This document shows, piece by piece, positions 15,045-32,020 of a stretch of 64,000 nucleotides of DNA. The notes beneath the pieces are model-generated. The model was not told the origin of the DNA. It made no database searches and saw only the letters and a program-made list of their open reading frames with translations. How positions within the stretch are numbered: the first letter of the stretch is position 1; every line of letters starts with the position of its first letter. Location: contig NZ_JAPKNI010000005.1 of assembly GCF_026343955.1 (NCBI RefSeq), positions 310,001-374,000 of the forward strand, in the 5' to 3' direction. The DNA comes from Kaistia defluvii (lineage in GTDB: Bacteria > Pseudomonadota > Alphaproteobacteria > Rhizobiales > Kaistiaceae). The translations under genes and the position numbers were made by a program.

Positions 15045-16526
15045 TCAGACGATCGGGTCAGCTCTCCTGGGCATCCGGCGCAGCGCACGAACCGCCACGA
15101 CGATGCAGAGCACGGGCGCGAGCGCGAAGATCACACCGAGCCAGAGCGCCGCATTCGACGCGCCAGCCATGGCGCCGGGCTCCGCGATACCGGCGAAGTT
15201 GGCGACCATGCCGGCGCAGGCCGTACCGAATGCGATGGAGAACAGCTGTACCGTCGTCACGCCGCCGGCCGCGAGGCCCTGCTCGCTGTCGGGAACAGAG
15301 CCATAAACCCGTGTCACAAGACTGGGCCAGGCAAGCCCGATGCCGAAGCCGATCAGCAACAGGCTGAGGCAGATCGGCATGAGATGGGCAGGGTCGCCGC
15401 CGCTTCGGACGGGCATGAACCAGGCGAACAGCGCCAGGCCCGTCGCGACCAGAACCGGCCCGGTGACGACCAGCCGGTCGCCATGGCTCTCCTGCCAGCG
15501 CGAACTCAGCAGAGATGCCGCCGTCCAGCCGAGCGCCATCAGGGCGGCGAGATAGCCGGCCCAGATCGGTGACTGGCCATGCAGCTCGCGCAGCAGATAG
15601 GGCACGAAGACTTCCGGTTGCATACCCAGCATCAGCAGAGCGATGGTGAGGTAGAGGGCGCCGGGCGCGGTTGCGATATCGAACGCGCCACGAGGCAGCA
15701 GCCGGACGCCGCCCCGCCCCTCCGCGACCGCGATCAGTGCGATCATGGCGAGCCCGGCGCCGAGGCCGGCCAGGTTCCAAACCAGCGCCGGCGAGAGACT
15801 GCCGGCCGACACCGCCAGCACGGCGCCCGTCAGCAGAACAAGCTGCGGCAGCGGCACCGGCGAGCGGTCGCCGCGATCCCGGCTTGTCGCCGGAAGCGTT
15901 ACATAGGCGACGGCAGCAAAGGCCGCCGTAACCGGAATCAGCGACCAGAACGCAGCCCGCCAGGCGCCATATTCGGCAAAGATGCCCCCTACGGCCGGAC
16001 CAATCAGCGTGGCGATGCCGAACATCGCCGAGATCAGGCCAATGGCGCGGCCCCAGAGCCGCTCCGGCAGGACAAGACGCGTCAATCCATAGGCCAGCGC
16101 ATAAAGAAAGCCGCCGCCCAGCCCCTGCACGCTCCGCCCGATCAGCATGACCGGCATGGCGGGAGACAGCGAGCAGATCAGCGTACCGCCGGCGAAGAGC
16201 ATCGATGCGACGAGATAGGCGGCGCGCGGACCGGCGCTTCCCAGCAACCTGGCGGTCAACGCCGCACCCAGGATCGAAGCGACGACAAACAGCGTCGTCG
16301 CCCAGGCATAGAAATCGAGGCCGCCAATATCGAGGATCACCGAGGGCATCACGGTCGTCGCGATGTACATGTTCACCGCATGCAGCGTGACGCCGCCCGA
16401 AAGCGCGATCGCATAGACGGCGTTCTTGCCGGTCAGCAATTCGCCCCAGCCCGCGGGGGAAGTCGGCGGCGCACTCGCCACCAGCCCGCCAGCGGTCCGC
16501 GCTGGCACATCGAGATCAAAATTCAT
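15045..16526 (-). CDS. MFS transporter under a SoxR-type promoter
   Basis: A 493-residue membrane protein with at least 12 hydrophobic segments. The cytosolic loop LTARLLGSAGPRAAYL resembles motif A, and a later PSVILDI/GLGGGFLYALAYG region is typical of drug:H+ antiporters. The start ATG at 16526 has a GGAG ribosome-binding sequence. Its promoter has TTGACC and TATAAG separated by 19 bp, with a sox box in the spacer, immediately after soxR. In many bacteria SoxR controls export of redox-cycling compounds, so this is the probable SoxR target exporter. Confidence 0.9.
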   Translation of the reverse strand: MNFDLDVPARTAGGLVASAPPTSPAGWGELLTGKNAVYAIALSGGVTLHAVNMYIATTVMPSVILDIGGLDFYAWATTLFVVASILGAALTARLLGSAGPRAAYLVASMLFAGGTLICSLSPAMPVMLIGRSVQGLGGGFLYALAYGLTRLVLPERLWGRAIGLISAMFGIATLIGPAVGGIFAEYGAWRAAFWSLIPVTAAFAAVAYVTLPATSRDRGDRSPVPLPQLVLLTGAVLAVSAGSLSPALVWNLAGLGAGLAMIALIAVAEGRGGVRLLPRGAFDIATAPGALYLTIALLMLGMQPEVFVPYLLRELHGQSPIWAGYLAALMALGWTAASLLSSRWQESHGDRLVVTGPVLVATGLALFAWFMPVRSGGDPAHLMPICLSLLLIGFGIGLAWPSLVTRVYGSVPDSEQGLAAGGVTTVQLFSIAFGTACAGMVANFAGIAEPGAMAGASNAALWLGVIFALAPVLCIVVAVRALRRMPRRADPIV

Positions 16527-16569
16527 GTCGGCACTCCATTGGGCGACGAGTCGTCGCCAGCCGACACGG

Positions 16570-16600
16570 CTTATAGAACCTCAACCATTCTTGAGGTCAA
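16570..16600 (-). promoter_or_regulatory. SoxR-type promoter of the MFS gene with 19-bp spacer and sox box
   Basis: On the minus strand TTGACC (16600-16595) and TATAAG (16575-16570) are 19 bp apart, the overlong spacing used by MerR-family activators. Inside lies the inverted repeat ACCTCAA-N6-TTGAGGT (16578-16597), nearly the E. coli soxS operator half-sites CCTCAA/TTGAGG. The site overlaps the last codons of soxR. Confidence 0.85.
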
Positions 16601-17081
16601 GGGCCGGTTCCGCATCGCTTGTCGGCTCGGTAGGCAACAGGCGGCGCGGGCCGGAACCACGCTGACCCAGTTCATCATCGGGATTGCGCAGCGGGCAATC
16701 TTCCAGCGACAGGCAACCGCAACCGATGCAGCTGGTGAGCTGGTCGCGAAGCTGGATCAGGCCGGTGATCCGCGCCTCCAGCATGTCCTTCCAAGTCTCG
16801 GTGAAATGACGCCAGTCGCGCGCATTGGGCGTGTGGTCGTGCGGCAGGTCTCGCAATGCCTCGCGAATGGTTGCCAGCGGGATGCCGGTGCGCTGGGCGA
16901 TACGGATGATGGCGATCCGGCGCAGCACGGAGCGATGATAGCGGCGCTGGTTGCCCTGAGTCCGCTCCCCGGCGATCAGCCCCTTGGCCTCGTAGAAATG
17001 CACCGTCGAAACAGCGACGCCGCTGCGCTTGGCGACGTCGCCAACGGCCAGCATGACCTTGATATCCTTGCCACTCATCAT
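16581..17081 (-). CDS. soxR: SoxR redox-sensing MerR-family activator
   Basis: A MerR-type regulator with the helix-turn-helix VGDVAKRSGVAVSTVHFYEAKGLI and the complete SoxR iron-sulfur signature CIGCGCLSLEDC, giving four cysteines spaced C-X2-C-X-C-X5-C. In the family, oxidation of the [2Fe-2S] cluster by redox-cycling agents activates promoters with long spacers. The start is unsettled: ATGs at 17090, 17081, 17078 and 17054 are open. A second sox box covers the 17090 ATG, which argues for 17081 or for 17054 (MLAVGDVAKRS, with an upstream AAGG). The MFS gene follows, driven by its own sox box. Confidence 0.95.
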   Translation of the reverse strand: MMSGKDIKVMLAVGDVAKRSGVAVSTVHFYEAKGLIAGERTQGNQRRYHRSVLRRIAIIRIAQRTGIPLATIREALRDLPHDHTPNARDWRHFTETWKDMLEARITGLIQLRDQLTSCIGCGCLSLEDCPLRNPDDELGQRGSGPRRLLPTEPTSDAEPALDLKNG

Positions 17082-17083
17082 GA

Positions 17084-17103
17084 ACCTCATTTTTAGTTGA
17101 GGT
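17084..17103. promoter_or_regulatory. Second sox box at the soxR start
   Basis: ACCTCAT-N6-TTGAGGT matches the MFS-promoter sox box in 13 of 14 arm positions. It lies over the first possible soxR start codon, so SoxR probably regulates itself. A weak -35-like TAGACC and -10-like CATGAT flank it on the minus strand. Confidence 0.65.
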
Positions 17104-17161
17104 CTATCCCAGTCCCTCCAGTGCGCATAGCCGCCTTCATTGCCCGCCTCCGTGCCAGATC

Positions 17162-17175
17162 TGAAATATATTTCA
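17162..17175. promoter_or_regulatory. Palindrome upstream of the sugar/polyol operon promoter (candidate SorC operator)
   Basis: TGAAATATATTTCA is a perfect 14-bp palindrome in an AT-rich island, followed two bases later by the 8-bp palindrome TTCATGAA (17177-17184). It sits just upstream of the -35 element. A SorC-family regulator encoded in the operon is the natural candidate to bind here. Confidence 0.5.
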
Positions 17176-17189
17176 TTTCATGAAGGATA

Positions 17190-17217
17190 TTGACGACATT
17201 CGGCTTGCTGCTATGAT
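17190..17217 (+). promoter_or_regulatory. Predicted sigma70-type promoter of the sugar/polyol operon
   Basis: TTGACG (17190-17195) and TATGAT (17212-17217) are separated by 16 bp and match the consensus well. This leaves a leader of about 100 bases before the solute-binding protein gene. Confidence 0.65.
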
Positions 17218-17321
17218 CCCGGCGTCGGCTTCGGGAGGAAGTTCCGGCAGTCCAATCAAGAAATCGAGCGCCTTGGCGTTCGCCATAATCTTTGTGGATG
17301 GCTTCGGCCAAGGGAGGGAAC

Positions 17322-18353
17322 TTGCGCAAATTTCTGAAAACGCTCGCCTTTGCGGCGACTGCTTCGACTTGTCTGGCCTCCAGCCAGTCGTTTGCCGAAA
17401 CAACTAACCCGTTCAAGTGCGAGCCGGGTGAAGAATACGTCATGAACGTCATGGTCTCGGGCGTCGAATACTGGTTCCCGGTCTATGAAATGTTCAAGCA
17501 GGCCGGCCAGCAGTTCGGCTGCAAGACGCGCTACACCGGCACGCCAGACTATGACGTCAACAAGCAGATCGCGACCTTCGACCAGGCGCTGGCGCAGAAG
17601 CCGGCCGGAATCCTGGTCCACCCGATGAACTCCGACCCGTTCATCGAGCCGATCAACCGTGCGATCGAGCAGGGCACCGCCGTCGTCACCTTCGCGGCGG
17701 ATTCGCCGAATTCGAAGCGCGTCTCGTTCATCACCTCGGACAACCTGGCCGAAGGCACCTATGCAGCCGACGCCGTCGCCAAGGCGATGGACGGCAAGGG
17801 CGAATACGCCGTGCTGGAGAATCCCGGCCAGGACAATCACGACAAGCGCATCAGCGCCTTCATCGCCCGCATGGAAGCCAAGTGGCCGGACATGAAGCTG
17901 GTCGGCCGCGCCGCCTCGAACCAGGATCCGACCAAGGCCTATCAGGCGGTCCTGAGCCTGGCGCAGGCGCATCCAGACCTCGGCGCGGTGTTCATGCCGG
18001 AGGCCAATTCGGCCATCGGCGCCGCCCAGGCGGCCAAGGAAGGCGGCGGCAAGATCAAGGTGATGCTGGCCGACGTCAACGCCAAGATCCTCGACATGAT
18101 CAAGGCCGGCGAGATCTACGGATCGGTCAATCCCAACCAGGGCATGCAGGGCTATATGGGCTTCCTGCTGCTCTGGATGGCCAAGCATCCCGAACTGATC
18201 GACCCGATGAACGACACCAAGCGTTCGGGCGCCAACGGCATGGCCGTGCCCTTCGTCGACAATGGTTTCTCGATCGTCACGGCCGAGAACGCCGACGACT
18301 TCTACTGGGACAAGTACCTGCAGCGCCGCGGCACCAAGGGCATCGAGGAATAG
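17322..18353 (+). CDS. CUT2-type sugar ABC transporter solute-binding protein
   Basis: A 343-residue periplasmic binding protein of the ribose/xylose-binding type (peripla_BP_4 fold). The leader [20 protein letters not shown] with an SFA-type cleavage site is a Sec signal peptide. The start is a TTG at 17322 with a very strong ribosome-binding sequence, AGGGAGGGAA, directly upstream; earlier in-frame codons lack one. It is the first gene of a ten-gene operon. The ligand is unknown but should be a monosaccharide or polyol. The intergenic hairpin after it probably keeps this product more abundant than the transporter subunits. Confidence 0.92.
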
Positions 18354-18397
18354 CTCGACGCCCCGATCGCGCGGCGATCCGCCGAGGCGAAGCTGCC

Positions 18398-18420
18398 GGA
18401 AGGGGGCACAGCCCCCTTCC
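18398..18420 (+). terminator. Intergenic hairpin after the solute-binding protein gene
   Basis: GGAAGGGGGC and GCCCCCTTCC form a perfect 10-bp stem with a three-base loop, between the binding-protein gene and the ATPase gene. Inside an operon such a structure normally stabilises the upstream mRNA or causes partial termination. Confidence 0.7.
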
Positions 18421-18447
18421 CCTTTCCGATCATCGCAGGAGCATGGC

Positions 18448-19974
18448 GTGACCCAGGCGCCCATTCTTGAAATTCGCGGCGTGTCCAAGGCCTTTGGCCC
18501 GGTCAAGGCGCTGAGCGACGTCCGCTTCGAGCTTCGCCGTGGCGAGATCCATGCGCTCTGCGGCGAGAACGGCGCCGGCAAGTCGACGCTGATGAACATC
18601 CTCGCCGGCGTCTTGCAGCCGAGCGACGGCGAGATCTGGCTGGACGGCCAGCGCGTCGCCATCCCCTCGCCCGCCGCGGCCCAGCGTCTCGGCATCGGCC
18701 TGGTGCATCAGGAGATCGCCCTTTGCCCCGACGCGACGGTGGCGGAGAACATCTACATGGCGGCGATCAACGCCCGCCGTTCGCCCCTGATGAATTTCCA
18801 GAAGCTCTATGTCGAGGCACAGAAGGTCATGGACCGGCTGGCCCCGATCCCGGTCCGCACCAAGGTGGCCGACCTCTCCATTTCCAACCAGCAGCTCGTC
18901 GAGATCGCCAAGGCCCTGACGCTCGACTGCAAGGTGCTGATGCTCGACGAGCCGACCGCCGCCCTCACAGAAAGCGAGGCGCAGCGCCTGTTTTCGATCG
19001 TGCGCGGACTGCAGCAGCGCGGCATTTCGGTGATCTATATCAGCCACCGCATGGCGGAGATCTTCTCGCTTTGCGACCGGGTCACGGTGTTTCGCGACGG
19101 CCAGTATGTCGCGACAGACCCCATTGCCGACGTTTCCCCGGATGACGTCGTGCGCAAGATGGTCGGCCGCGAGATCACCCAGCTCTATCCCGACAAGCTG
19201 GCCGAGGCGCCGGGACGGGTGCTGCTCTCGGTCAAGGGCCTCTCCGACAGTGACTGTTTCAAGCAGGTCGATCTCGAGCTTCGCGCCGGTGAAATCCTCG
19301 GCATGGGCGGCCTGATCGGCGCCGGCCGCAGCGAGATCGCGCAGACCATCTGCGGATTGCGACCGGCGACCGCCGGCACGGTCGAGATCGACGGCAAACC
19401 GCAGCGCATCCGCAACTACAGCGACACGGTCCGGTCCGGGCTGGTCTACCTGTCCGAGGACAGAAAGGGCTCCGGCGTGTTCCTCGACATGCCGATCGCG
19501 GCCAATATCTCGGCGCTGGATTTGAACAAGGTGACATCGCTCGGCCTGCTCAACCGCAAGGCAGAGGACCGCCAGGCGGGCGAACTGACGAAGCGCCTCG
19601 GTGTGCGCATGTCCGGCATCGGCGCCGCCGTCTCGACGCTAAGCGGCGGCAACCAGCAGAAGGTCGCGATCGCCAAGCAGCTCTCGGTCAACCCGCGCGT
19701 GATCCTGATGGACGAGCCGACCCGCGGCATCGATGTCGGCGCCAAGGTCGAGATCCACCGCCTGCTGCGCCAACTCGCCGCCCGGGGCGTCGGCATCGTC
19801 GTCATCTCCTCGGAACTGCCGGAACTGATCGGCCTCTGCGACCGGGTGATCGTCGTGCACGAGGGCCGCATCGCCGGCGAACTCGGCGCCGACGCGCTCG
19901 GCGAGGAAGCGATCATGCGGCTCGCCTCCGGCGTCAAGAATTCCTCAACACAGCAGGCCGCCCATGTCGCCTAG
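18448..19974 (+). CDS. Sugar ABC transporter ATP-binding protein (two ATPase domains)
   Basis: A 508-residue RbsA/XylG-type protein. The first domain has GENGAGKST and [14 protein letters not shown]. The second has a degenerate Walker A region (GLIGAGRSE) but a full signature [15 protein letters not shown] and [12 protein letters not shown], the normal asymmetry in this family. It energises import of the sugar delivered by the upstream binding protein. The GTG at 18448, preceded by AGGAG, starts exactly at the conserved [17 protein letters not shown] segment. It overlaps the permease gene by 11 bp. Confidence 0.93.
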
Positions 19975-20971
19975 GGAACACACCCCCATGCAAGCCGAAC
20001 TCAACGCCGCCGGCGCCCGGCGCATCGACTTCGCCCGCCTCGCCTCGATGCGCGAGGCCGGGTTGATCGTCATCATCCTTCTGCTCTGCGTCGCCATGAG
20101 CTTCGCCTCGCCCCACTTCCTCACCTGGGGCAACCTTCGCGCCATGATGATGAGCTTCTCGATCGAGGGCATCGTCGTCGTCGGCATGACGATCCTCCTG
20201 ATCGTTGGCGGCATCGACCTCTCGGTCGGCTCGGTGGTCTGCTTCTCCATGGTGATTTCCGGTGCGCTGTTCCTGGCCGGGCTCGATCCCTGGACGGCGA
20301 GCCTGGCCGGTATCGCCGCCAGCGCGCTGATCGGCGCCATCATGGGCTTCTTCGTCACGGTGGTCGGGCTCAACCATTTCATCACGTCACTCGCGGCGAT
20401 GGTGATCGTGCGCGGCCTCTGCCTGATCATCACCAAGGGAACGCCGCTGTCGCTGTTCTCGCTGCCGCCCTCGTTCAAGGCGATCGGCCAGGGCAGCTTT
20501 CACAACATCCCCTATGTGATCCTGATCTTCCTCGTCGTCGTCGCCGTCTTCGACTTCCTGCTGCGTCGCGCCACCGCCTTCCGCAAGGTCTTCTATACCG
20601 GCTCCAACCAGAAGGCGGCGCAGTTCTCCGGCATCAATACCAACCAGGTGAAGTTCTGGGTGACGGTGCTGTGCTCCGCCCTGGCCGGCTTCGCGGGCGT
20701 CATCTACATGGCCCGTTTCGGGGCCGCCACGCCGACCTTCGGCGCGGGCATGGAACTGAACATCATCGCCGCGGCGGTGATCGGCGGCGCCTCGCTCAAT
20801 GGCGGCTCCGGCACCATCTTCGGGGCGATCCTCGGCATGGCGCTGCTTTCGGTCGTCACCAGCTCGCTCATCCTGCTCGACGTCTCCGTCTATTGGCAGG
20901 AGATGATCAAGGGTTGCATTCTGCTCGCTGCCGTCTCCATCGACCACTTCCTGCATCGCAGGAAGTCCTGA
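19964..20971 (+). CDS. Sugar ABC transporter permease
   Basis: A 335-residue RbsC-type inner-membrane permease with about nine or ten hydrophobic segments. Typical family stretches are [18 protein letters not shown] and [19 protein letters not shown]. It probably works as a homodimer with the two-domain ATPase. Start codons at 19964 (overlapping the ATPase gene) and 19988 are both possible. Confidence 0.92.
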
Positions 20972-20996
20972 GCCTCCAGCGCACCGAAGCAAGATC

Positions 20997-21977
20997 ATGG
21001 CCCCCATCACTCCACGCGACGACCTCCAGGCTGCCCGGCAGATGCACCAGGCCCTCGTCCTGCACTACATCGAGGGCAAGACCCAGGCGGAGATCGCCCG
21101 GGAACTCGGCCTTTCGCACGCGACGGTCAACCGGCTGATCAAGCGCGGCCACCAGCTTGGCCTCGTCGAGATCAAGATCAAGTCGCCGATCGACCATCTC
21201 GTCGAGATCGAGGCGCGACTGGTCGAACTTGGCGGCATCGAGCGCGCGGTGGTGGTGCCCTCCGTCTCCGACAATCCGCGCACGGCCCTGCAGCGGGTCG
21301 GCGAGGCGGCGGCGCGGCTGCTGCTCGACACGATCAAGGATGGCGACACCATTTCGATTTCGGGCGGCAAGGGCGTCAGCGCCCTGGTGGCGGGGCTGCA
21401 GCCAAGCCGCCGCTACGATGTCGAGGTCATCCCGGCGACCGGGCTCGTCCAGGGCAAGCACTATACCGACGTCAACCATGTCGCCTCGCTGATGGCCGAC
21501 AAGCTCGGCGGCCGCGCCTACCAGATCCACGCGCCGCTCTTCGCGGACTCGCCGGAACAGCGTGAGATGCTGATGAGCGTGCGCTCCGTCGGCGACGTGT
21601 TCCGCCGGGCGCGCGAGGCGGATGTGGCGGTGATCGGCATTGGCTCGATCCTCAGCGATGACTCCAGCTATTACGACCTGCATCCCTTCTCCGTCGCCGA
21701 TCGCCGCGCCATCGAGGAATCGGGCGCGACGGGCGAACTGCTCGCCCATCTCATCGGTCGCGACGGCCAGCTGTGCGACTACACGCCGAACCGCTCGCTG
21801 GTGTCGCTGACCCTCGACGAATTCGCCACCATTCCCCGCTCGATCGGCATCGCCAGCGGCGCCAGCAAGATCGCGCCGGTGCTGAGCGCCATGCGCGGCA
21901 ATCACCTCGACACCATCGTCACGGACGAAACGACCGGGCTCCAGATCCTGGACCTCGCCCAGAAGGAAGCAGCATGA
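20997..21977 (+). CDS. SorC/DeoR-type sugar-binding transcriptional regulator (EryD/LsrR-like)
   Basis: A 326-residue regulator with an N-terminal helix-turn-helix (EGKTQAEIARELGLSHATVNRLI, about 23-45) and a C-terminal SorC sugar-phosphate-binding domain. The latter shows conserved ISGGKGVSALV and GIGSILSDDSSYY-type segments. LsrR and EryD from this family respond to phosphorylated pathway intermediates. It sits inside the operon, so it probably autoregulates from the promoter at 17190, perhaps through the palindrome at 17162. Its stop overlaps the next ATG (ATGA). Confidence 0.9.
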   Translation: MAPITPRDDLQAARQMHQALVLHYIEGKTQAEIARELGLSHATVNRLIKRGHQLGLVEIKIKSPIDHLVEIEARLVELGGIERAVVVPSVSDNPRTALQRVGEAAARLLLDTIKDGDTISISGGKGVSALVAGLQPSRRYDVEVIPATGLVQGKHYTDVNHVASLMADKLGGRAYQIHAPLFADSPEQREMLMSVRSVGDVFRRAREADVAVIGIGSILSDDSSYYDLHPFSVADRRAIEESGATGELLAHLIGRDGQLCDYTPNRSLVSLTLDEFATIPRSIGIASGASKIAPVLSAMRGNHLDTIVTDETTGLQILDLAQKEAA

Positions 21978-22969
21978 GCCCGCAGCCAATCCAGCGCCCC
22001 ATCGGCAAGTCCGGCATCTCCGCCTCGGCTGTCGGCCTCGGCACCTGGGCCATTGGCGGCTGGATGTGGGGCGGCACGGATGACGCCGCCTCGATCCGCG
22101 CCATCGAAGCCTCGATCGAGGCCGGCATCAGCCTGATCGACACGGCGCCGGCCTACGGCCTCGGCCGCAGCGAGGAGATCGTCGGCAAGGCGATCCGCGG
22201 CAAGCGAGACAAGGTGGTGATATCAACCAAATGCGGGCTCAACTGGCACTCCGGCAAGGGCAACCCTTTCTTCGACCAGGACGGCATCCCGGTCCACCGC
22301 TATCTCGGCGCTGATGGCATCGCCTATGAGGTGGAGCAGAGCCTGAAGCGGCTCGGGACCGACCATATCGACCTCTACATCACGCACTGGCAGGACCCGA
22401 CCACGCCGATCGCCGAGACGATGGCCGCGCTGCAGAAGCTGAAGGCGCAGGGCAAGATCCGCGCGATCGGCGCTTCCAATCTGAGCCTCGACGATTTGAA
22501 CCAATACGTCGCCGCCGGAGGGCTCGACGCGATCCAGGAGCGCTATTCGGCTTTGGACCGCGAGATCGAGAGTACCCTCCTCCCGATCGCCATGCGCAAC
22601 GATATCGCAACGCTCAGCTATTCGTCGCTGGCGCTCGGCCTGCTGACCGGATCGATCGATCCCTCGCGCGAATTCACCGGCGACGACCAGCGCCTCGGCA
22701 ATCCGCGCTTCTCTCCGGCCAACCGAGAGAAGATCGCGCGGCTGAAGACGGCCATCGCCCCGATCATCGCGAAGCACGGCGCGTCCATGGCGCAGATCAT
22801 GATCGCCTGGACGCTGGCCCAGCCCGGCATCACCTTCGCGCTTTGCGGCGCGCGCAATCCCGAGCAGGCGATCGAGAATGCGCGGGCCGGCGAAATCCGC
22901 CTCGATGCCGAGGATCTCGCCACCCTCGATGCGGCGCTTGCGACGCATCTCGTGGCCATGGATGCGTGA
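21974..22969 (+). CDS. Aldo/keto reductase
   Basis: A 331-residue NAD(P)H-dependent (beta/alpha)8 barrel. The catalytic set is visible: Asp and Tyr in SLIDTAPAYGLGRSEE, Lys in VISTKCGL and His in YITHWQDP. Cofactor-binding CGARNPEQAIENARA lies near the C-terminus. In this operon it probably interconverts a sugar or aldose with its polyol, or handles the aldehyde released by the aldolase. The ATG overlaps the regulator stop by 4 bp, which fixes the start. Confidence 0.9.
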   Translation: MSPQPIQRPIGKSGISASAVGLGTWAIGGWMWGGTDDAASIRAIEASIEAGISLIDTAPAYGLGRSEEIVGKAIRGKRDKVVISTKCGLNWHSGKGNPFFDQDGIPVHRYLGADGIAYEVEQSLKRLGTDHIDLYITHWQDPTTPIAETMAALQKLKAQGKIRAIGASNLSLDDLNQYVAAGGLDAIQERYSALDREIESTLLPIAMRNDIATLSYSSLALGLLTGSIDPSREFTGDDQRLGNPRFSPANREKIARLKTAIAPIIAKHGASMAQIMIAWTLAQPGITFALCGARNPEQAIENARAGEIRLDAEDLATLDAALATHLVAMDA

Positions 22970-22988
22970 GCGAGAAAGCAGAAACCCG

Positions 22989-24707
22989 ATGAACCGCACC
23001 GAAACCCTTGCCGCCCTGCGCGGTCGGCCGGATGTTGCCGTGCTCGTCATCGGCGGCGGCATTAACGGCATCAGCGTTTTCCGCGAACTCGCGCTGCAGG
23101 GCGTCGATGTCGTGCTGGCGGAAAAGGGCGACTATTGCAGCGGCGCCAGCGCCGCCCTCTCGCGCATGGTGCATGGCGGCCTGCGCTATCTGGAAAATGG
23201 CGAGTTCAAGCTGGTGCGCGAGTCGCTCGTCGAGCGCGACCGGCTGCTGCAGAACGCGCCGCACTACGTGGCGCCACTGCCGACGACCGTGCCGATCTTC
23301 GACATCTTCTCCGGCATCGCAAATGGAGCGGTCCGCTTTCTCGGCCTGACCCGCCGGCCGAGCCGCCGCGGCGCCTTCGTCATCAAGGCCGGTCTGACGC
23401 TCTATGACCGCTTCACCGCGTCGCGACGGCTGATGCCGGCACACCGGTTTCGCGGCCGGGCCGAGACCTTGAAAACCTGGCCAGCGATCAATCCGACGAT
23501 CCGCAGTTCCGCCACCTATTACGACGCATGGGTCAGCCGGCCGGAACGGCTCGGGCTGGAGATGTTGCTCGACACGTTTGCGGCCGCTCCCTCGGCCCGT
23601 GCCCTAAACTATGCGACGATAGCGTCCAACGCCTCCGGCCTCGTGCTCACCGATACGCGCACCGGAGAAAGCCTGCCGATCCGGCCGAAGCTCGTGATCA
23701 ACGCGACCGGCGGCTGGATCGACCTGACCAACCAGGCGATCGGCGCCCCGGCGCCGCGCATGATGGGCGGCACCAAAGGTTCGCACCTGATCGTCGACAA
23801 CCCGGCGCTCTATCAGGCGTTGGATGGCCACATGGTCTATTACGAGAACGAGGACGGACGCATCTGCATCCTGTTCCCCTATCTCGGCAAGGTGCTGATC
23901 GGCTCGACTGACATCCGCGTCGACGATCCCGACACCGTTCGCTGCGAGGATGACGAGCGCCGCTACATCCTGCAGTCGCTTTCCTTCGTCTTCCCGTCGA
24001 TCCCGGTTGCCGACGACGAGATCGTCTTCCAGTTCTCCGGTGTCCGCCCCCTGCCCGCCAGCAAGGACAGCTTCACCGGCCGCATCCCGCGCGACCATTT
24101 CTGCGAGTTCGTCGAGGCGACCGACGCACTGCCAGCGACACTCTGCATGATCGGCGGCAAGTGGACCACCTTCCGCTCTTTCGGCGCCTTGGCGGCCGAC
24201 ATGGCGCTCGAGCGGCTCGGTCTTTCCCGCAAGATCGGAACCGAGACCCTCGCCATCGGCGGCGGCCGTGCCTTTCCGGCGAACCCGGCCGCATGGATCG
24301 CCGGGCTTGCGCGCGAGCACGGGCTCAGCCCCGATTACGCGCAACACCTCTTCGAGCGTTATGGCACGTCTGCCGAAGCGCTAGCTGCTGACATCGCCAA
24401 GGATCCCGTCGAGATGCTGCCGGGCTCGGACTATTCGGCCAGAGAGATCGCCGCAATCGTCGAGCGCGAGCAGGTCGAAACCCTCGCCGATCTGTTTCTC
24501 CGCCGCACCACCATCGCCATATCGGGCGGCCTCACGCCCGCTCTCATCGACGCCGGGCTCGCCATCCTCGCCGGTCAAAAGGGCTGGGATGCGGAACGGT
24601 CCGCCGGCGAGCGCGCCGCCTTCCTCGGGCTGCTCGCCAGCCAGCACGGCGTCCATTTTCCCGATTGCGCCCACACGAACGACAAAAGGAGCGCCCTATG
24701 CGCCTGA
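22989..24707 (+). CDS. FAD-dependent glycerol-3-phosphate dehydrogenase family protein (GlpD/EryB-like)
   Basis: A 572-residue flavoprotein. FAD binds at VLVIGGGINGISVFRELALQ near the N-terminus, followed by the family motif MVHGGLRYLENGEFKLVRE and a FPYLGKVLIGSTD segment. The C-terminal helical domain of GlpD follows. Members oxidise glycerol-3-phosphate or erythritol phosphate and pass electrons to quinone. With a kinase and an aldolase beside it, oxidation of a phosphorylated polyol to a ketose phosphate is the likely role; plain glycerol use is less likely because glpF/glpK context is absent. It overlaps the aldolase gene by 10 bp. Confidence 0.85.
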   Translation: MNRTETLAALRGRPDVAVLVIGGGINGISVFRELALQGVDVVLAEKGDYCSGASAALSRMVHGGLRYLENGEFKLVRESLVERDRLLQNAPHYVAPLPTTVPIFDIFSGIANGAVRFLGLTRRPSRRGAFVIKAGLTLYDRFTASRRLMPAHRFRGRAETLKTWPAINPTIRSSATYYDAWVSRPERLGLEMLLDTFAAAPSARALNYATIASNASGLVLTDTRTGESLPIRPKLVINATGGWIDLTNQAIGAPAPRMMGGTKGSHLIVDNPALYQALDGHMVYYENEDGRICILFPYLGKVLIGSTDIRVDDPDTVRCEDDERRYILQSLSFVFPSIPVADDEIVFQFSGVRPLPASKDSFTGRIPRDHFCEFVEATDALPATLCMIGGKWTTFRSFGALAADMALERLGLSRKIGTETLAIGGGRAFPANPAAWIAGLAREHGLSPDYAQHLFERYGTSAEALAADIAKDPVEMLPGSDYSAREIAAIVEREQVETLADLFLRRTTIAISGGLTPALIDAGLAILAGQKGWDAERSAGERAAFLGLLASQHGVHFPDCAHTNDKRSALCA

Positions 24708-25540
24708 ACCAGAAAGCCCGCATGAACCGCCTCTTCGGCGGCGGGCGTTGTCTCGACGTCGCCATCGATCACGGCGTCTGCAACGAGCCGAGTTTCCTCG
24801 CCGGTCTCGAAGACATGGAGGGTGTCGTCGCCCAGCTTGTCGCGGCCGGGCCCGACGCGATCCAGATGAACTACGGCCAGGCCGACCTGCTGCAGTCCGT
24901 TCCCGGCAAGGACAAGCCGGCGCTGGTGATGCGCATCGACATGGGCAATCCCTACAATCGTATCCGCCACCGCGCGATGTGGGCGGTGCTGCAGAACGAA
25001 ACCGACCCGCTGATCGGCGCGATCGAGATGGACGCCGCCTGCGCCGTGGTCAACCTGTTCATGCTGCCCGACGAGCCCGACCTGTTCCGGCAATGCGTCC
25101 AGAACATCGCCCGTGTCCGCGCCGATTGCGACAGATACGGCATGCCACTGATGATCGAACCGCTCGCCATGCTGCCGGTCGACCAGAATGGCGGCTACAT
25201 GGTCGATGGCGATGCCGAGAAGATCGTGACGCTGACGCGCCTCGCCCGCGAGATGGGCGCCGACATCGTCAAAGCGGATCCCACCACCAACCCCGAGGAC
25301 TTCCACCGCGTCGTCGAGGCGGCGCGTTGCCCGGTGCTGGTGCGCGGTGGTGGCAGGGAGGACCTGCGCGCCGTGTTCGACAAGTCGGCAGCCCTGATGG
25401 CGCAGGGCGCGCTCGGCATGGTCTATGGCCGCAACATCTATCAGCATGCCAATCCGCGGGCGGTGGTGCGTGGCCTGATGGCGATCATCCACGACGACGC
25501 GGACGGCGCGACGGCCTGGGAACTCTATCAGAACGCATAG
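24698..25540 (+). CDS. DeoC/LacD/LsrF-family class I aldolase
   Basis: A 280-residue (beta/alpha)8 protein. Early AIDHG (about 22-26), Lys192 in GADIVKADPTTN as the likely Schiff-base lysine, and phosphate-binding VRGGGRED (about 215-222) plus YGRNIYQH (about 243-250) are typical. LacD splits tagatose-1,6-bisphosphate and LsrF handles phosphorylated autoinducer-2. Here the product of the GlpD-like enzyme is the probable substrate, with a triose phosphate or dihydroxyacetone phosphate as one product. AGGAG precedes the ATG at 24698. Confidence 0.85.
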   Translation: MRLNQKARMNRLFGGGRCLDVAIDHGVCNEPSFLAGLEDMEGVVAQLVAAGPDAIQMNYGQADLLQSVPGKDKPALVMRIDMGNPYNRIRHRAMWAVLQNETDPLIGAIEMDAACAVVNLFMLPDEPDLFRQCVQNIARVRADCDRYGMPLMIEPLAMLPVDQNGGYMVDGDAEKIVTLTRLAREMGADIVKADPTTNPEDFHRVVEAARCPVLVRGGGREDLRAVFDKSAALMAQGALGMVYGRNIYQHANPRAVVRGLMAIIHDDADGATAWELYQNA

Positions 25541-25566
25541 AGGCTTCGGTTTCGGGAGGGGAACCC

Positions 25567-27084
25567 ATGGGCGAATACATTCTCGGACTTGATGCCGGCA
25601 ATACCGTCATCAAGGCGATCATCTTCGACAAGACCGGCCGCGAACTGGCGCTCGCGGCGCGGGATGGCCACTCCTCCATGCCGAAGCCCGGCCATGTCGA
25701 GCGCGACCTGAACGAGCTTTGGCGCAATGCCGTCGCGGTCATCCGCCAGTGCACCGAGCAGGCGGGCATCGACGCCGGCGAGATCATCGCCATCGGCTGC
25801 GCCGGGCATGGCAACGGCCTCTATGCGCTCGACCACGACGGTGTTCCCCTGATCGGCATCCAGTCGCTCGACACCCGCGCCGTCGGCGTCGTGGCGGACT
25901 GGGCGAAGCAGGATGTCGGCGTCCGCGCCTATGCGCACTGCCTGCAAATGCCCTGGGCGGCGCAGACCCCGACCCTGCTCACCTGGCTGAAGCGCCATGC
26001 GCCGGACCTGTTCGCCAGGGTCGGGACGGTCTTCCTGTGCAAGGATTTCGTCGTCAACCGCCTGACCGGAGCGCGCTCGACCGATACGTCCGACATGTCG
26101 GGCTGCGGCCTGCTGCGGATGCCGGACAGGCGCTACGAGGCGGAACTGATGGCCGCCTATGGGCTGGAAGACTGCATGAGACTGCTGCCGCCTGTGCTGG
26201 AATCAGCCGAGATCGCCGGCCGGATCACGGATGACGTTGCCGCCCTCACCGGCCTCCGCGCCGGCACGCCCGTCGTCGCCGGGCTGTTCGACGTGGTGGC
26301 GAGCGCCGTCGGTTCGGGCGTGACCCATACCGGCGCCGCCTCGGTCATTGCCGGGACCTGGAGCATCAACCAGGTGATCACGGACGAGCCGATCCGCGAC
26401 CCGTCGATCTTCATGGTCTCGACCTTCGATCCGGTCCGCTATCTGGCGATCGAGGCGAGCGCGACCTCGGCCGCCAATCTCGAATGGATCGTGCGCGAAT
26501 TCCTCGATCACGGAGGGGCGGCGGGCGACACGTCGCCCTTCGAGCTTTGCAGCGAGATGGTCGCCTCCATCGATCCGGATGGCGATGTGCCGATCTACCA
26601 CCCGTTCCTCTATGGCTCCCAGCAGAGCGGCAGCGCCCGCGCCGGTTTCTATGGCATTGCCGGCTGGCACACCCGCGCCCACCTGCTGCGCGCGCTGTTC
26701 GAAGGCGTCGCCTTCGAACACAGGCGGCATGTCGAAAGGCTGCGCGGCGCGGGCGCGCGGATCGATGAAGTCGTTCTCTCCGGCGGCGGCTCCCGCAGCC
26801 CGGTCTGGCCGCAGATCTTCGCCGATGTGCTGGGCGTTCCCGTCACGGTAGCGCGCAGCCGCGAGACCGGCGCCCTGGGCGCGGCGATCGCCGCAGGTGT
26901 GGGAACCGGCGCCTTTGCCGACTTTGGCGAGGGCGCGGCCGCCATGACAGCCGCCGCCCGCAACTACCTGCCCGACAACGCTATTTCTCCGGCTTACGAA
27001 CGACGCTATAGCGTCTATGGTGAGATCAATCAGGCGATGACACCGATTTGGCAGCGCGTCGCCGCTGGGCAGGCGCAGAATTGA
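25567..27084 (+). CDS. FGGY-family carbohydrate kinase
   Basis: A 505-residue actin-like kinase. The N-terminal ATP/phosphate loop is [19 protein letters not shown] catalytic-type Asp lies in [16 protein letters not shown], and the C-terminal adenosine motif is [20 protein letters not shown]. The family includes xylulokinase, EryA, LsrK and L-xylulose kinase types. Its substrate is most simply the imported sugar or polyol. The start at 25567 follows GGGAGGGGAAC. The stop overlaps the GMC gene start (TTGA). Confidence 0.9.
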
Positions 27085-28697
27085 CAGAACCGTCTTCTTC
27101 CCTTGGTGAATACGACTATGTGATCGTCGGCGCGGGTTCGGCGGGCTGCGTGCTCGCCAACCGGCTCTCCGCCGATCCGCGCAACCGGGTGCTCCTGCTC
27201 GAAGCCGGCGGCAGCGACCGCTACCACTGGGTCAACATCCCGATCGGCTATCTCTTCTGCATGGGCAATCCGCGCACCGACTGGATGATGAAGACGGAGC
27301 CGGAACCGGGCCTCAATGGCCGCAGCCTGAACTATCCCCGCGGAAAAGTTCTCGGCGGCTGCTCCTCGATCAACGGCATGATCTACATGCGCGGCCAGGC
27401 GGCCGACTATGACGGCTGGCGGCAGGCGGGAAATGCCGGCTGGGGCTGGGACGACGTGCTGCCCTACTTCCTGAAATCGGAAGCCCATCATGGCGGCGAA
27501 AATGCGCTGCATGGCGGAAGCGGCGAGTGGCGGGTGGAGAAGCAACGCCTGTCCTGGCCGATCCTCGACGCGTTTCGCGACGCGGCCGAGGAACTCGGCA
27601 TCCCGCGCACCGACGATTTCAACACCGGCACCAATGAAGGCTCGGGCTATTTCGAGGTGAACCAGAAGAACGGCGTGCGCTGGAACACGTCGAAGGCCTT
27701 CCTGCGCGGTATCGAGAACCGGCAGAACCTGCGCGTCATAACCGGAGCCGAGACCGAACGGCTGACCTTTGACGGCGGTCGCGTCACCGGGCTCGTCTTC
27801 CGCAAGGACGGGCGTCTACATCAGGTGAAGGCAGGCCAGACGATCCTCGCCGCCGGCGCGATCAACTCGCCCAAGATCCTGGAACTCTCCGGCGTCGGCC
27901 GGCCGGATCTGCTCTCCGACCTCGGCATCCCGGTCCGGCACGCGCTCAACGGCGTCGGCGAGAACCTGCAGGACCATCTCCAGATCCGCACCGTGTTCAA
28001 GGTGAGCGGCGCGGCAACGCTCAACCAGCGCTACCACAACCTCGCCACACGCGCCGCGATGGGCCTCGAATATGCGCTGAGGCGCAGCGGACCGCTGTCG
28101 ATGGCACCGAGCCAGCTTGGCATCTTCGCCAAAAGCGACCCTCGCCTGGAGACACCGGATCTCGAATATCACGTCCAGCCGCTGAGCACGGATCGGCTCG
28201 GCGAGCCGCTGCACAAGTTCCCGGCCGTAACGGTCTCCGTCTGCAATCTGCGCCCCGAAAGCTGCGGCACGGTGCATATGGCATCGTCCGACCCGCGCGA
28301 GGCTGCGAAGATCCGGCCGAACTATCTCTCGACGGAAAGGGATCGACAGGTCGCCGTGGCCTCGATCGAGCATGCGCGACGCCTGATGCGAACCCGCGCC
28401 ATCGCCGGCTTCGCGCCGCAGGAAATGCTGCCGGGGCCCGAATTCGTCGAGGAAAGCGATCTGGTGCGCAAGGTCGGCGACATCGCGACGACGATCTTCC
28501 ATCCGGTCGGCACCTGCAGGATGGGCCGGGATGACATGGCCGTGGTCGACGACCGGCTTCGGGTGCATGGTCTCGACGGCCTGCGCGTCGTCGACGCCTC
28601 GATCATGCCGAACATCGTCTCCGGCAACACCAATTCGCCGGTGATCATGATCGCCGAAAAGGCCGCCGAAATGATCCGGCAGGATTCCCAGCGTTAA
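27081..28697 (+). CDS. GMC-family oxidoreductase (choline dehydrogenase-like)
   Basis: A 538-residue flavoprotein with the GMC FAD motif [18 protein letters not shown] at the N-terminus, the signature [21 protein letters not shown] near residue 80, and the C-terminal HPVGTCRMG and [14 protein letters not shown] segments that contain the catalytic His. It would oxidise an alcohol. As last gene of the sugar/polyol operon it may feed the pathway by oxidising a polyol. The start is inferred to be TTG at 27081, overlapping the kinase stop; no ATG exists before conserved sequence begins. Confidence 0.88.
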
Positions 28698-28703
28698 GGC
28701 GAC

Positions 28704-28736
28704 AGCGCGGCCCGACCTCCTCGGTCGGGTCGCGCT
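28704..28736. terminator. Bidirectional terminator-like hairpin between convergent operons
   Basis: AGCGCGGCCCGACC and GGTCGGGTCGCGCT form a 14-bp stem with one G-T pair and a five-base loop. It fills the 45-bp gap between the plus-strand GMC gene and the minus-strand pcaF, as expected for a shared terminator. Confidence 0.75.
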
Positions 28737-28742
28737 GGCTGA

Positions 28743-29945
<1,203 letters not shown>

Positions 29946-29946
29946 C

Positions 29947-30618
29947 TCAAAGCTCCGGAACAATCAGATCGGCGACAGGGCTGGCTACGTGCAATTCAGC
30001 GCCGGTCACGGCCTGCAATTCGTCAAGGGACAAGACCGCTAGCTTCTCGCGCAGGACGAAGCGCCCTCCCTCGATGTCGATCACAGCCAGAGAGGTGTAG
30101 ACCCGGGTGACGCAGCCGACGCCGGTCAGCGGCAGCGAGCAGCGCTGGAGCAGCTTCGGCTTGCCGTCCTTGGTGACGTGGTCGGTGATCACGGCCACGC
30201 GCTTGGCGCCATGCACCAGATCCATCGCCCCGCCCACCGCTGGCACGCCCTTCGGCCCCGTCGACCAGTTGGCGAGATCGCCGTTTTCCGCAACTTCATA
30301 GGCGCCGAGGATCGCCACATCGAGATGGCCGCCGCGCACCATGGCGAAGCTGTCGGCATGGTGAAAGAACGCCGAGCCCGGCTTGAGAGTGACGGCCCGC
30401 TTACCGGCATTGATCAGGTCCCAGTCTTCCTCGCCGCTGGGCGGCGCCTCGCCGAAGTTGAGGATGCCGTTCTCGGTGTGGAAGATCGCCTCGCGGCCAG
30501 GCGGCTGGTACTGCGCCACCTTCTCCGGAAAGCCGATGCCGAGATTGACATAGGCGCCGTCGTGAATGTCCTGCGCGGCGCGCCAGGCAATCTGGTTGTT
30601 GGTGAGCTTCGCGGCCAT
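29947..30618 (-). CDS. pcaJ: 3-oxoadipate CoA-transferase, beta subunit
   Basis: A 223-residue subunit with the catalytic glutamate motif HTENGILNFG (Glu49), the beta-subunit hallmark of class I CoA-transferases. It moves CoA from succinyl-CoA to 3-oxoadipate together with PcaI, encoded immediately upstream with one base between. An ATG at 30618 is preferred over an upstream TTG. Confidence 0.94.
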   Translation of the reverse strand: MAAKLTNNQIAWRAAQDIHDGAYVNLGIGFPEKVAQYQPPGREAIFHTENGILNFGEAPPSGEEDWDLINAGKRAVTLKPGSAFFHHADSFAMVRGGHLDVAILGAYEVAENGDLANWSTGPKGVPAVGGAMDLVHGAKRVAVITDHVTKDGKPKLLQRCSLPLTGVGCVTRVYTSLAVIDIEGGRFVLREKLAVLSLDELQAVTGAELHVASPVADLIVPEL

Positions 30619-30619
30619 G

Positions 30620-31351
30620 TCAGGCAACTCCCGGATAGACGGCGTTCGCGCGATTCAGGTCTTCTTCCTGCTGCGGATCCGCGACCTCGACGACCTTCTG
30701 GACGAAGATGCCGGGCGTGATGACAACCTCCGGCTCGATGCCGCCGGCCGGAACGACGCGCCTTGCCTGCACGACGGTTTCGGCGGCGGCCATGCACATC
30801 AGCGGATTGAAGTTCCGCGCGGCGGCGCGGTAGGTGAGATTGCCCTGGGTGTCGGCGGTCTCGGCCTTCACCAGCGCCACATCGGCCTTCAGCCAGCGCT
30901 CCTGCACATAGGGCCGCCCGTCGAACTCCGCGACCGGCTTGCCCCTGGCGAGATCGGTGCCATAGGAGGTGGGCGTATAGAAGGCCGGAATGCCGGCGCC
31001 GCCGGCGCGGATGCGCTCGGCCAGCGTGCCCTGCGGCACCAGCTCCAGTTCGATTTTGCCCGCCAGATAGAGGTCGGTGAACACCACCGGATCGGCCGAT
31101 CGCGGGAAGGAGCAGACGAGCTTCTTCACCATCCCCGCCTCGATCAGGGCGGCGAGGCCGACATGGCCGTTGCCGGCATTGTTGTTGATGATCGTCAGGC
31201 CCGTCGGGTGCCCCGTCGCAAGGAAGCGATCGATCAGCGCATGGATCAGCTCGATCGGCGAGCCGGCCCCGCCGAAGCCGCCGATCATCACGGTCATACC
31301 ATCCTCGATTCCCGCCACGGCGGTGGCGAGGTCTGCGACTGTCTTATCCAT
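30620..31351 (-). CDS. pcaI: 3-oxoadipate CoA-transferase, alpha subunit
   Basis: A 243-residue alpha subunit with the glycine-rich CoA-binding region MIGGFGGAGSPIELIHALID near the N-terminus and conserved ELVPQGTLAERIRAGGAGIPAF. It forms the heteromer with PcaJ. A 65-bp gap to the flavin reductase gene upstream contains an 8-bp hairpin (31364-31371 with 31383-31390). Confidence 0.94.
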   Translation of the reverse strand: MDKTVADLATAVAGIEDGMTVMIGGFGGAGSPIELIHALIDRFLATGHPTGLTIINNNAGNGHVGLAALIEAGMVKKLVCSFPRSADPVVFTDLYLAGKIELELVPQGTLAERIRAGGAGIPAFYTPTSYGTDLARGKPVAEFDGRPYVQERWLKADVALVKAETADTQGNLTYRAAARNFNPLMCMAAAETVVQARRVVPAGGIEPEVVITPGIFVQKVVEVADPQQEEDLNRANAVYPGVA

Positions 31352-31416
31352 CAGAAGTCCTCATGCGCCGGAACGGCAACCGCCGGCGCAAACAAAGGGA
31401 TCATGAGTTCGGCCGC

Positions 31417-31965: not shown

Positions 31966-31997
31966 CGACGGCTCTTTCTCGCAGCATGGGATAGGGA

Positions 31998-32020
31998 GCC
32001 GGGCGGTCGAACCGCCCGGC
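31998..32020 (-). terminator. Intergenic hairpin between monooxygenase and flavin reductase genes
   Basis: GCCGGGCGGT and ACCGCCCGGC form a perfect 10-bp stem with a three-base loop, directly downstream of the monooxygenase stop. It may stabilise the monooxygenase message relative to the reductase. Confidence 0.65.

Follow-up and report, generated by a model that had tools for sequence, protein, structure and literature searches.

Positions 17322-28697 of a 64,000-nucleotide stretch of Kaistia defluvii DNA (the window) carry genes that recall both the erythritol and the autoinducer-2 (AI-2) degradation pathways, raising the question of whether the locus is a hybrid of the two or an operon with a route of its own.

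Gene content and control region

Nine co-directional genes, from the start codon of the first at 17322 to the stop codon of the last at 28697, were found to encode a CUT2 importer, a SorC-type regulator, an aldo/keto reductase (AKR), a GlpD-like flavoenzyme, a class I aldolase, an FGGY kinase and a GMC oxidoreductase. The gene set, order, strand and ends given in a preliminary description of this DNA were all borne out. The genes overlap at three junctions: SorC/AKR (21974), GlpD/aldolase (24698) and kinase/GMC (27081).

17322-18353, plus strand: CUT2 sugar/polyol-binding protein (SBP); TTG start; Pfam Peripla_BP_4; fold nearest AraP (6sw4), CbpA (7x0g) and 3g1w
18448-19974, plus strand: CUT2 ABC ATPase; GTG start; ABC_tran in two stretches
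19988-20971, plus strand: CUT2 permease; BPD_transp_2
20997-21977, plus strand: SorC/DeoR-type sugar-binding transcriptional regulator; Sugar-bind PF04198; NCBIfam DeoR and LsrR matches below cut-off
21974-22969, plus strand: aldo/keto reductase, YdjG-like; PF00248; NF049922 at 279.5 bits, below the cut-off of 550
22989-24707, plus strand: GlpD-like FAD dehydrogenase with DAO_C domain, group A; PF01266 and PF16901; clade SH-aLRT 100
24698-25540, plus strand: DhnA/LsrF-superfamily class I aldolase with Schiff-base Lys192; PF01791, 189 bits; TIM-barrel model
25567-27084, plus strand: FGGY kinase, LyxK-like, group A; PF00370 and PF02782; clade SH-aLRT 99
27081-28697, plus strand: GMC flavin oxidoreductase (choline-dehydrogenase-like); TTG start overlapping the kinase stop; PF00732 and PF05199

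A curated NCBIfam cut-off was reached by none of the matches listed for the nine proteins (for the ATPase, the best 25 of 192). A thiolase step had been described as absent; a thiolase gene does adjoin the operon in convergent orientation (28743-29963), and it corresponds to PcaF of a beta-ketoadipate cluster.

The upstream region and the intergenic gaps contain the following elements.

17162-17175, no strand assigned: operator box 1, the perfect palindrome TGAAATATATTTCA, its sole match in the window
17181-17195, plus strand: second, degenerate operator box TGAAGGATATTGACG, which overlaps with the -35 element and is kept at fixed spacing in relatives
17190-17217, plus strand: sigma-70-like promoter TTGACG-16-TATGAT, the single promoter-like site in 17060-28800
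18398-18420, plus strand: RNA hairpin in the gap between the SBP and ATPase genes (z -3.1; equally stable in 0 of 200 shuffles)
28703-28737, no strand assigned: strong hairpin without a T run in the gap between the GMC gene and convergent pcaF (-35.1 kcal/mol, z -5.0)

Shuffles of the window gave a mean of 0.03 matches to TGAAATATATTTCA with up to two mismatches allowed. Upstream of the related operons described below, the palindrome was present exactly in 49 of 79 and with at most two mismatches in 69 of 79, while none of 200 shuffled 14-mers used as a control was found in these regions; the second box followed 5 bp from the first, at fixed spacing, in 65 of the 79. A genome-wide search of 11 genomes located the exact site once per genome, at the operon, in seven. 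Two of the remaining four had one-mismatch sites only, namely G071 (a single site, on another contig than the operon) and G051 (five sites, including one ahead of the operon), and in G015 and G205 no site was found even with one mismatch allowed. The promoter site draws its weight from the adjacent conserved operator, since shuffles of the region give a mean of 1.4 promoter-like sites. The regulator contains the SorC sugar-binding domain, and a conserved palindrome lies at the promoter, as expected of a SorC-regulated operon; from position and conservation, TGAAATATATTTCA is probably bound by this protein. The regulator was about equidistant from EryD (119 bits) and LsrR (113 bits) by blastp. 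In the SBP/ATPase gap, the best 40-nt fold was below -14 kcal/mol in 79/79 relatives as against 39/79 coding controls (medians -25.3 and -14.0 kcal/mol).

Conservation of the operon and its neighbors

A genome scan found at least 536 relatives, of which 80 were kept for likeness. Within this kept set, the GlpD-aldolase-kinase core was present in 80/80 and the SBP-ABC-permease-SorC-AKR block in 79/80, the exception (L041) lying at a contig end. An intact GMC ortholog was found in 62 of the 80 relatives and none in the other 18. Among flanking genes within 4.5 kb of the nine, the most frequent cluster occurred at only 15/80 loci and the next at 8/80. The gene layout is not due to chance, and the operon is a real, self-contained nine-gene unit common to many soil and root-nodule bacteria. 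Hosts among the relatives listed include Kaistia, Mesorhizobium, Aminobacter, Rhizobium, Sinorhizobium/Ensifer, Shinella, Phyllobacterium, Brucella/Ochrobactrum and Devosia, with S. meliloti 1021 (pSymB) and R. johnstonii 3841 (pRL12) among the strains. In four loci (L123, L125, L126 and L132), the importer is replaced and the enzyme core retained.

The aldolase and the dehydrogenase were observed to be coupled. In a survey of 297 genomes of the order, the operon aldolase clade occurred in 22, and a group A dehydrogenase beside it in exactly these 22; moreover, 19 sister kinase and GlpD loci (13 of group B, 6 of group C) showed no match to any of five aldolase queries. The class II aldolase gene RL_RS33900, beside RL_RS33905 and RL_RS33910 in R. 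johnstonii, was considered as part of a parallel kinase-GlpD-aldolase module and dropped because it is not a conserved neighbor in these 19 loci. One genome, G636 (loci L147 and L237), retains the importer, AKR and aldolase with a divergent kinase (29%) and a divergent GlpD-like gene (42% to that of Kaistia, 46% to RL_RS33905), and SorC was not found there. In this genome the gene set is thus maintained without the clade pairing.

The operon proteins carry generic names only in those annotated plasmid records that were consulted, pRL12 included. The suggestion that the operon may be undescribed is consistent with a search of the open-licence literature, made partly by guessed locus tags, in which no description was found; this does not amount to proof. 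In the S. meliloti literature, SMb20504 is described as a periplasmic sugar-binding protein (PMC12542648), SMb20505 as TfxG (PMC4053727) and SMb20495 as a TPR protein (PMC5498481). On this basis SMb20504 would be the SBP gene of the operon in S. meliloti, with SMb20505 and SMb20495 as the two neighbors, and the operon would correspond to SMb20496-SMb20504.

Kinase, dehydrogenase and aldolase

The kinase contains FGGY_N and FGGY_C domains and shares with LyxK in alignment the motif GLFDVV, the catalytic Asp motif of FGGY kinases. By blastp it scored highest with R. johnstonii RL_RS33910 (331 bits, 40% identity), with lower scores for E. coli LyxK (317 bits, 36%), LsrK (176 bits, 28%) and R. johnstonii EryA (160 bits, 28%); identity to FucK, GlpK and RhaB was 26, 23 and 21%, respectively, LyxK being the closest among seven E. 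coli FGGY kinases compared. In the tree it formed a clade of its own (SH-aLRT 99) outside EryA, which is itself a long branch. LyxK, an L-xylulose kinase, acts on a ketose, and hence the operon kinase might too; the operon context of LyxK is entirely different, and the substrate of the Kaistia kinase probably differs from that of LyxK.

The dehydrogenase, with DAO and DAO_C domains, was likewise nearest to R. johnstonii RL_RS33905 (447 bits, 44%), well ahead of GlpD (161 bits) and EryB (155 bits, 31%). Of the non-orthologous proteins in the reference set, the uncharacterized RL_RS33910/RL_RS33905 pair thus scored highest. Group A dehydrogenases form one clade (SH-aLRT 100), with GlpD and EryB on the other side of a branch of support 100. 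The residues H50, R54, Y55, H233, R317, R332 and K354, presumably the active-site and phosphate-contact residues of E. coli GlpD, have the counterparts H62, R66, Y67, H266, R353, R368 and K391, which are kept in 79/79 orthologs and imply a phosphorylated substrate. The labels EryA-, EryB- and EryD-like given earlier therefore had to be corrected, as the kinase is nearer to LyxK than to EryA, the dehydrogenase falls outside GlpD/EryB and the regulator is about as close to LsrR as to EryD.

The aldolase shows the features of DhnA-type class I aldolases (PF01791): the family profile, a TIM barrel, a Schiff-base lysine and a phosphate-site motif. Its K192 aligns with the Schiff-base lysine of LsrF, the residue that is alanine in 4p2v. 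K192, D24-H25, E154, RGG 216-218 and YGRN 243-246 were invariant in 13 aligned rows down to 42% identity. Among solved structures, ADH synthase in complex with DHAP or fructose-1,6-bisphosphate came closest to the model, the two structure models being of middling quality (mean pLDDT 80.8 and 74.1). Similar to MJ0400, LsrF and archaeal FBP aldolase, the enzyme has the same fold, the lysine and the GG...GRN motif; it differs in its low identity to them (about 20-29%), in E154 within an 'IEPL' stretch, and in an RHRxMW loop that sets operon aldolase clades 1-2 apart from the known DhnA/ADH-synthase/LsrF aldolases. With 29% identity and 78 bits to LsrF (blastp), the label LsrF-type was not borne out. 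The tyrosine of the MJ0400 'MMYPRG' stretch, which has a role in the reaction, had no clear counterpart in the alignment, so the reaction type is judged indirectly: family, fold neighbors and gene context suggest a ketose-1-phosphate aldolase that releases DHAP.

Proposed route and alternatives

The preferred reading, with a probability of about 0.6, is that of a substrate-inducible, self-contained sugar-alcohol operon acting by kinase, GlpD-like oxidation and aldolase cleavage under SorC control. The CUT2 importer would take in a polyol, and the LyxK-like kinase would phosphorylate a terminal hydroxyl to give a polyol-1-phosphate. The GlpD-like flavoprotein would then oxidize, in the fashion of GlpD, the carbon adjoining the phosphate-bearing carbon, yielding a ketose-1-phosphate and passing electrons to the respiratory chain. 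The aldolase would form a Schiff base with this product and cleave it to DHAP and a short aldehyde, which the AKR and, where present, the GMC enzyme may reduce or oxidize; alternatively these two may prepare the substrate. The SorC-type protein is predicted to sit on the tandem TGAAATATATTTCA operator, where it would repress the single promoter until released by a phosphorylated intermediate. A sequence of kinase, dehydrogenase and retro-aldol cleavage on an unusual polyol or sugar had been proposed from the outset, and the GlpD-site residues, K192, the folds and the genes around distant aldolases make it, with a polyol, the best reading. At four of the five distant aldolase loci (42-54% identity) with neighbors scanned, a ketose-forming enzyme and/or sugar kinase (D-lyxose-isomerase-like, mannitol-dehydrogenase-like or PfkB) lay nearby; the fifth, L142, counts against the reading, as the three neighbors scanned there (HAD, amine-oxidase, MFS) included no ketose-forming enzyme. 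The SBP is nearest in fold to arabinose-binding protein, and a substrate read from this structure was dropped, as a match at 31% identity is not decisive; the swapped importer of clade 2 was dropped as a clue because its SBP matches no named SBP well. C5/C6 or deoxy/branched polyols fit the route better than C4 polyols. The stereochemistry of GlpD would favor a polyol whose carbon to be oxidized has the D-configuration, making D-arabitol and mannitol less likely.

The L-fucose and L-rhamnose routes (FucK/FucA, RhaB/RhaD) also use an FGGY kinase followed by cleavage to DHAP and an aldehyde. The Kaistia operon differs from them in lacking an isomerase, in its class I DhnA aldolase in place of a class II enzyme, and in the GlpD-like step. 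In a related scheme, a ketose would be imported or first formed by the AKR or GMC enzyme, phosphorylated at C1 by the LyxK/FucK-like kinase and cleaved by the aldolase, with the GlpD-like enzyme acting on a phosphate formed on a side branch or later in the route, for example glycerol-3-phosphate. The proximity of the kinase to the ketose kinase LyxK agrees with this scheme, as do three of the five distant aldolase loci scanned, in which a PfkB kinase gene is accompanied by one for an isomerase or a polyol dehydrogenase. Against it, the GlpD-like enzyme belongs to a clade of its own that is tied to the aldolase clade in 22/22 genomes of the order survey, and the Kaistia genome contains elsewhere a GlpD/EryB-type gene (51% to EryB) and a separate GlpK (54%). 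The ketose scheme is therefore considered unlikely.

The same GlpK and GlpD/EryB-type gene speak against a plain operon for glycerol or glycerol-3-phosphate. Such an operon would account for the GlpD-like enzyme and the FGGY kinase, and the group C relative L215 adjoins BPD_transp_1 and ABC/TOBE transporter genes of the type that adjoin glycerol loci; the aldolase would nevertheless serve no purpose in it and the kinase is only 23% identical to GlpK, leaving this reading with hardly any credibility.

Rhizobiales ery loci resemble the operon in the CUT2 importer, the SorC-type regulator and an FGGY kinase followed by GlpD-type oxidation of a polyol phosphate, and 11 of the 13 sister group B kinase/GlpD pairs lie within erythritol loci. 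A threitol- or erythritol-type tetritol could accordingly be envisaged as substrate, the aldolase splitting tetrulose-1-phosphate into DHAP and formaldehyde. In contrast to ery loci, though, the aldolase replaces the isomerases: neither the window nor any of the 80 related loci gave a tblastn match (E<=1e-8) to EryC, TpiB, RpiB or LsrG, in keeping with the absence of EryC reported before. EryA and EryB are distant and in separate clades, the 13 group B loci matched none of the five aldolase types queried, and formaldehyde would be an awkward product. The tetritol route is hence regarded as improbable.

The lsr operon shares the CUT2 importer, SorC regulator, FGGY kinase and LsrF-superfamily aldolase; it differs in LsrG, absent here, and the Kaistia operon has GlpD-like, AKR and GMC enzymes in addition. 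The operon might on these grounds degrade AI-2 or a similar compound, or supply the LsrF step that the genome's own lsr operon lacks: a separate lsr locus with matches to LsrG, K, R, A, C, D and B was found in which LsrF is missing, and the operon aldolase is the sole LsrF match in the genome (E<=1e-5). An AI-2 operon was rejected because that locus has its own LsrK homolog (53%) and LsrK had no match at E<=1e-90 in 6/6 other operon genomes tested. GlpD and AKR are not known to have a role in AI-2 metabolism, which also counts against it, and the chance that either form is correct is very small. AI-2, erythritol and glycerol readings are thus all disfavored. A hybrid of ery and lsr was rejected on best-match scores and trees, as the kinase and the dehydrogenase each fall into a separate clade and the lsr genes, GlpK and the GlpD/EryB-type gene reside elsewhere in the genome. 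The earlier view that the operon fits neither pathway exactly stood up, with EryA/EryB types, EryC/TpiB/RpiB and LsrK/LsrF/LsrG all wanting.

A more specific form of the polyol reading is offered tentatively, at a little under even odds: a polyol of plant or rhizosphere origin, new as a bacterial carbon source, may be degraded by an undescribed route in which it is first phosphorylated by the kinase, next oxidized by the GlpD-type enzyme to a ketose-1-phosphate and finally split into DHAP and an aldehyde by a DhnA-class aldolase of a new clade, dispensing with isomerases and pentose-phosphate enzymes. If true, the route would give one aldolase clade a defined function, account for genes that at present bear the names 'class I fructose-bisphosphate aldolase' or 'glycerol-3-phosphate dehydrogenase/oxidase', and point to an unrecognized carbon source in the rhizosphere.

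Gene content and surroundings of the operon

Nine co-directional genes with three overlapping junctions occupy positions 17322–28697. Pfam and NCBIfam profiles placed them, in order, as a CUT2 binding protein (SBP), ATPase and permease, a SorC-type regulator, an aldo/keto reductase (AKR), a GlpD-like flavoenzyme, a DeoC/LacD-superfamily aldolase, an FGGY kinase and a GMC oxidoreductase. Gene calls and profiles thereby bore out the gene families of the preliminary description, and none of the matches listed for the nine genes (for the ATPase, the best 25 of 192) reached a curated NCBIfam cut-off. The genome is 4.9 Mb in size; judged by the aldolase, Kaistia terrae (96%) is its closest named relative. 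The flanking genes are unrelated to the operon:

15045–17090, minus strand: SoxR gene and MFS gene, upstream of and divergent from the operon
28743–33264, minus strand: pcaF, pcaJ and pcaI-type genes, an ORF and an HsaA-like gene, downstream and convergent

The SoxR gene scored above its curated NCBIfam cut-off, and the MFS gene weakly resembles DHA2 efflux pumps, below the cut-off. The downstream cluster probably comprises aromatic-degradation genes; its HsaA-like monooxygenase gene (32029–33264, minus strand) fell below the NCBIfam cut-off, and the ORF at 31417–31965 (minus strand) had no NCBIfam match at E ≤ 1e-20.

Conservation and probable local regulation

The preliminary description had proposed looking for the same gene set in other genomes. 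In a scan that retained the best 80 of 536 relatives listed, the GlpD–aldolase–kinase core was present in 80/80 and the SBP–ABC–permease–SorC–AKR set in 79/80, the exception lying at a contig end. With a 90%-length filter, intact orthologs were counted in 79/80 for each of SBP, ATPase, permease, AKR and the GlpD-like enzyme, in 80/80 for the aldolase, in 78/80 for SorC and the kinase, and in 62/80 for GMC. The commonest cluster of extra genes within 4.5 kb occurred at 15/80 loci (four genera) and the next at 8/80. Relatives include RL_RS36690–36730 on pRL12 of R. johnstonii 3841 and a locus around 518.5 kb on pSymB of S. meliloti 1021, probably SMb20496/97–SMb20504 judging from gene names in papers; SMb20504 is tabulated in a study of PhaR (PMC12542648). 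Searches of one open-licence library found no description of the operon, and the literature passages retrieved assigned it no substrate.

A more distant clade (aldolase identity 70–77%) kept the enzyme core with a replaced importer, namely a CUT2 system with two permeases and a different SBP at three loci (L123, L125, L132) and an SBP of the same kind plus a permease at a fourth (L126). One additional gene lies between kinase and GMC in L123, L126 and L132; it is a zinc-type dehydrogenase by Pfam in L132, and the other two inserts are similar by sequence. Outside the order, one locus (L146) is complete except for GMC; at L147/L237 the importer, AKR and aldolase are present, the kinase and GlpD-like gene are divergent, and SorC had no match.

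A perfect palindrome, TGAAATATATTTCA, is present at 17162–17175, and 5 bp beyond it a degenerate second box overlaps the promoter (TTGACG-16-TATGAT). The palindrome was found exactly in 49 of 79 upstream regions of relatives and with ≤2 mismatches in 69; none of 200 shuffled words occurred in these regions. A genome-wide search of 11 genomes, allowing one mismatch, yielded a single, exact site in seven (the window's own and six others), about 7.5 kb upstream of the aldolase, i.e., at the operon head. Genome G051 had one-mismatch sites at five positions, including one ahead of the operon, G071 had one on a different contig from the operon, and G015 and G205 had none with ≤1 mismatch; the control pattern gave 0 across the same genomes. 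The near-clade regulator thus seems to act at a single operon, a sign that the pathway consists of these nine genes; the farther clade may use a different operator. A strong hairpin separates the SBP and ATPase genes, with a median of -25.3 kcal/mol in 79 relatives vs. -14.0 in coding controls and folds below -14 kcal/mol in 79/79 vs. 39/79.

Comparison with erythritol, glycerol and AI-2 systems

The Ery and Lsr labels used earlier did not survive comparison, as the kinase is nearer to LyxK (36%, 317 bits) than to LsrK (28%, 176 bits) or EryA (28%, 160 bits), and the enzymes form clades of their own in the trees. The kinase shares 40% (331 bits) with RL_RS33910 of R. johnstonii and 23% (86 bits) with GlpK, and the GlpD-like enzyme shares 44% (447 bits) with RL_RS33905, 29% (161 bits) with GlpD and 31% (155 bits) with EryB; EryB and GlpD are 48% identical. 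In a quick kinase tree with several long branches flagged, the window's clade (group A, SH-aLRT 99) adjoined sister groups B and C, with LyxK, then EryA, outside them. The GlpD-like tree supported groups A (100), B (97), C (90) and GlpD/EryB (100). Group B kinases come mostly from erythritol loci, with ery genes (EryA–D or EryEFG) at 11/13; of the other two, L208 had a TpiB match alone and L212 weak matches alone. Group C loci have other contexts (L215 with BPD_transp_1 and ABC/TOBE, L217 with GntR/UTRA). A second kinase and GlpD-like pair, seen at L151 and L158 (R. johnstonii pRL12, RL_RS33905/33910) and at L202–L214, with ery genes alongside at 11/13 loci examined, possibly serves another tetritol such as L-threitol.

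Neither the window nor any of the 80 loci had a match to EryC, TpiB, RpiB or LsrG, in agreement with the reported absence of an EryC-type isomerase step. Elsewhere the genome carries GlpK (54%), a GlpD/EryB-type gene and a separate lsr locus (G000:C15:22000-41000; L234, 7810–15491) with LsrG (48%), K (53%), R (44%), A (50%), C (52%), D (56%) and B (76%). LsrF had no match at this locus; at E ≤ 1e-5 the operon aldolase was the genome's sole match to LsrF, so it may have a side role. Against this, LsrK had no match at E ≤ 1e-90 in 6/6 other operon genomes tested. In S. meliloti (L121, about 30090–32827), about 10 kb past the operon end, lie relatives (77–83%) of RL_RS33885/33890/33895, which are Lsr-like permeases and an isomerase/epimerase; this is possibly the psicose locus SupABCD named in PMC4961836.

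Predicted chemistry of the pathway

Active-site and phosphate-contact residues, defined by their positions and roles in E. coli GlpD, were conserved in 79/79 GlpD-like orthologs; hence the dehydrogenase substrate is most likely a phosphorylated polyol. Its oxidation would most likely place a ketone adjacent to the phosphate-bearing carbon, giving a ketose-1-phosphate, the classic substrate of DHAP aldolases. Conserved features of the aldolase, across 13 rows with identity down to 42%, are the Schiff-base lysine K192, D24-H25, E154, RGG and YGRN. Its profile search matched ADH synthase MJ0400, LsrF and archaeal FBP aldolase, and the closest structures to its model (pLDDT 80.8) were those of ADH synthase bound to DHAP or fructose-1,6-bisphosphate.

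An aldolase match was present in 29 of 297 genomes surveyed in the order, with identity ≥70% in 22, and in these same 22 a group A dehydrogenase adjoins it (assigned by position and identity for all, by tree for a sample). The survey's other 22 dehydrogenase rows are located elsewhere; 19 of those loci were fetched, at 12–18 kb apiece and in some cases reaching a contig end, and they had no match to any of five aldolase types (window aldolase, class II FBA, FbaB, YihT, LsrF). Together these observations tie the aldolase to the oxidation step.

Nine distant aldolase copies (42–54% identity) were found, and neighbors were scanned for five: D-lyxose-isomerase-like and PfkB genes at L138 and L148, mannitol-dehydrogenase-like and PfkB genes at L139, a D-lyxose-isomerase-like gene at L141, and HAD, amine-oxidase and MFS genes at L142, where the three neighbors scanned included no ketose-forming enzyme. 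The first four perhaps represent other unnamed ketose-phosphate routes. GFO/IDH/MocA genes were also listed among their neighbor types.

The conserved GlpD residues, aldolase motifs and coupling make the earlier proposal of kinase, dehydrogenase and retro-aldol cleavage the best reading of the operon, which is real, conserved, self-contained and catabolic.
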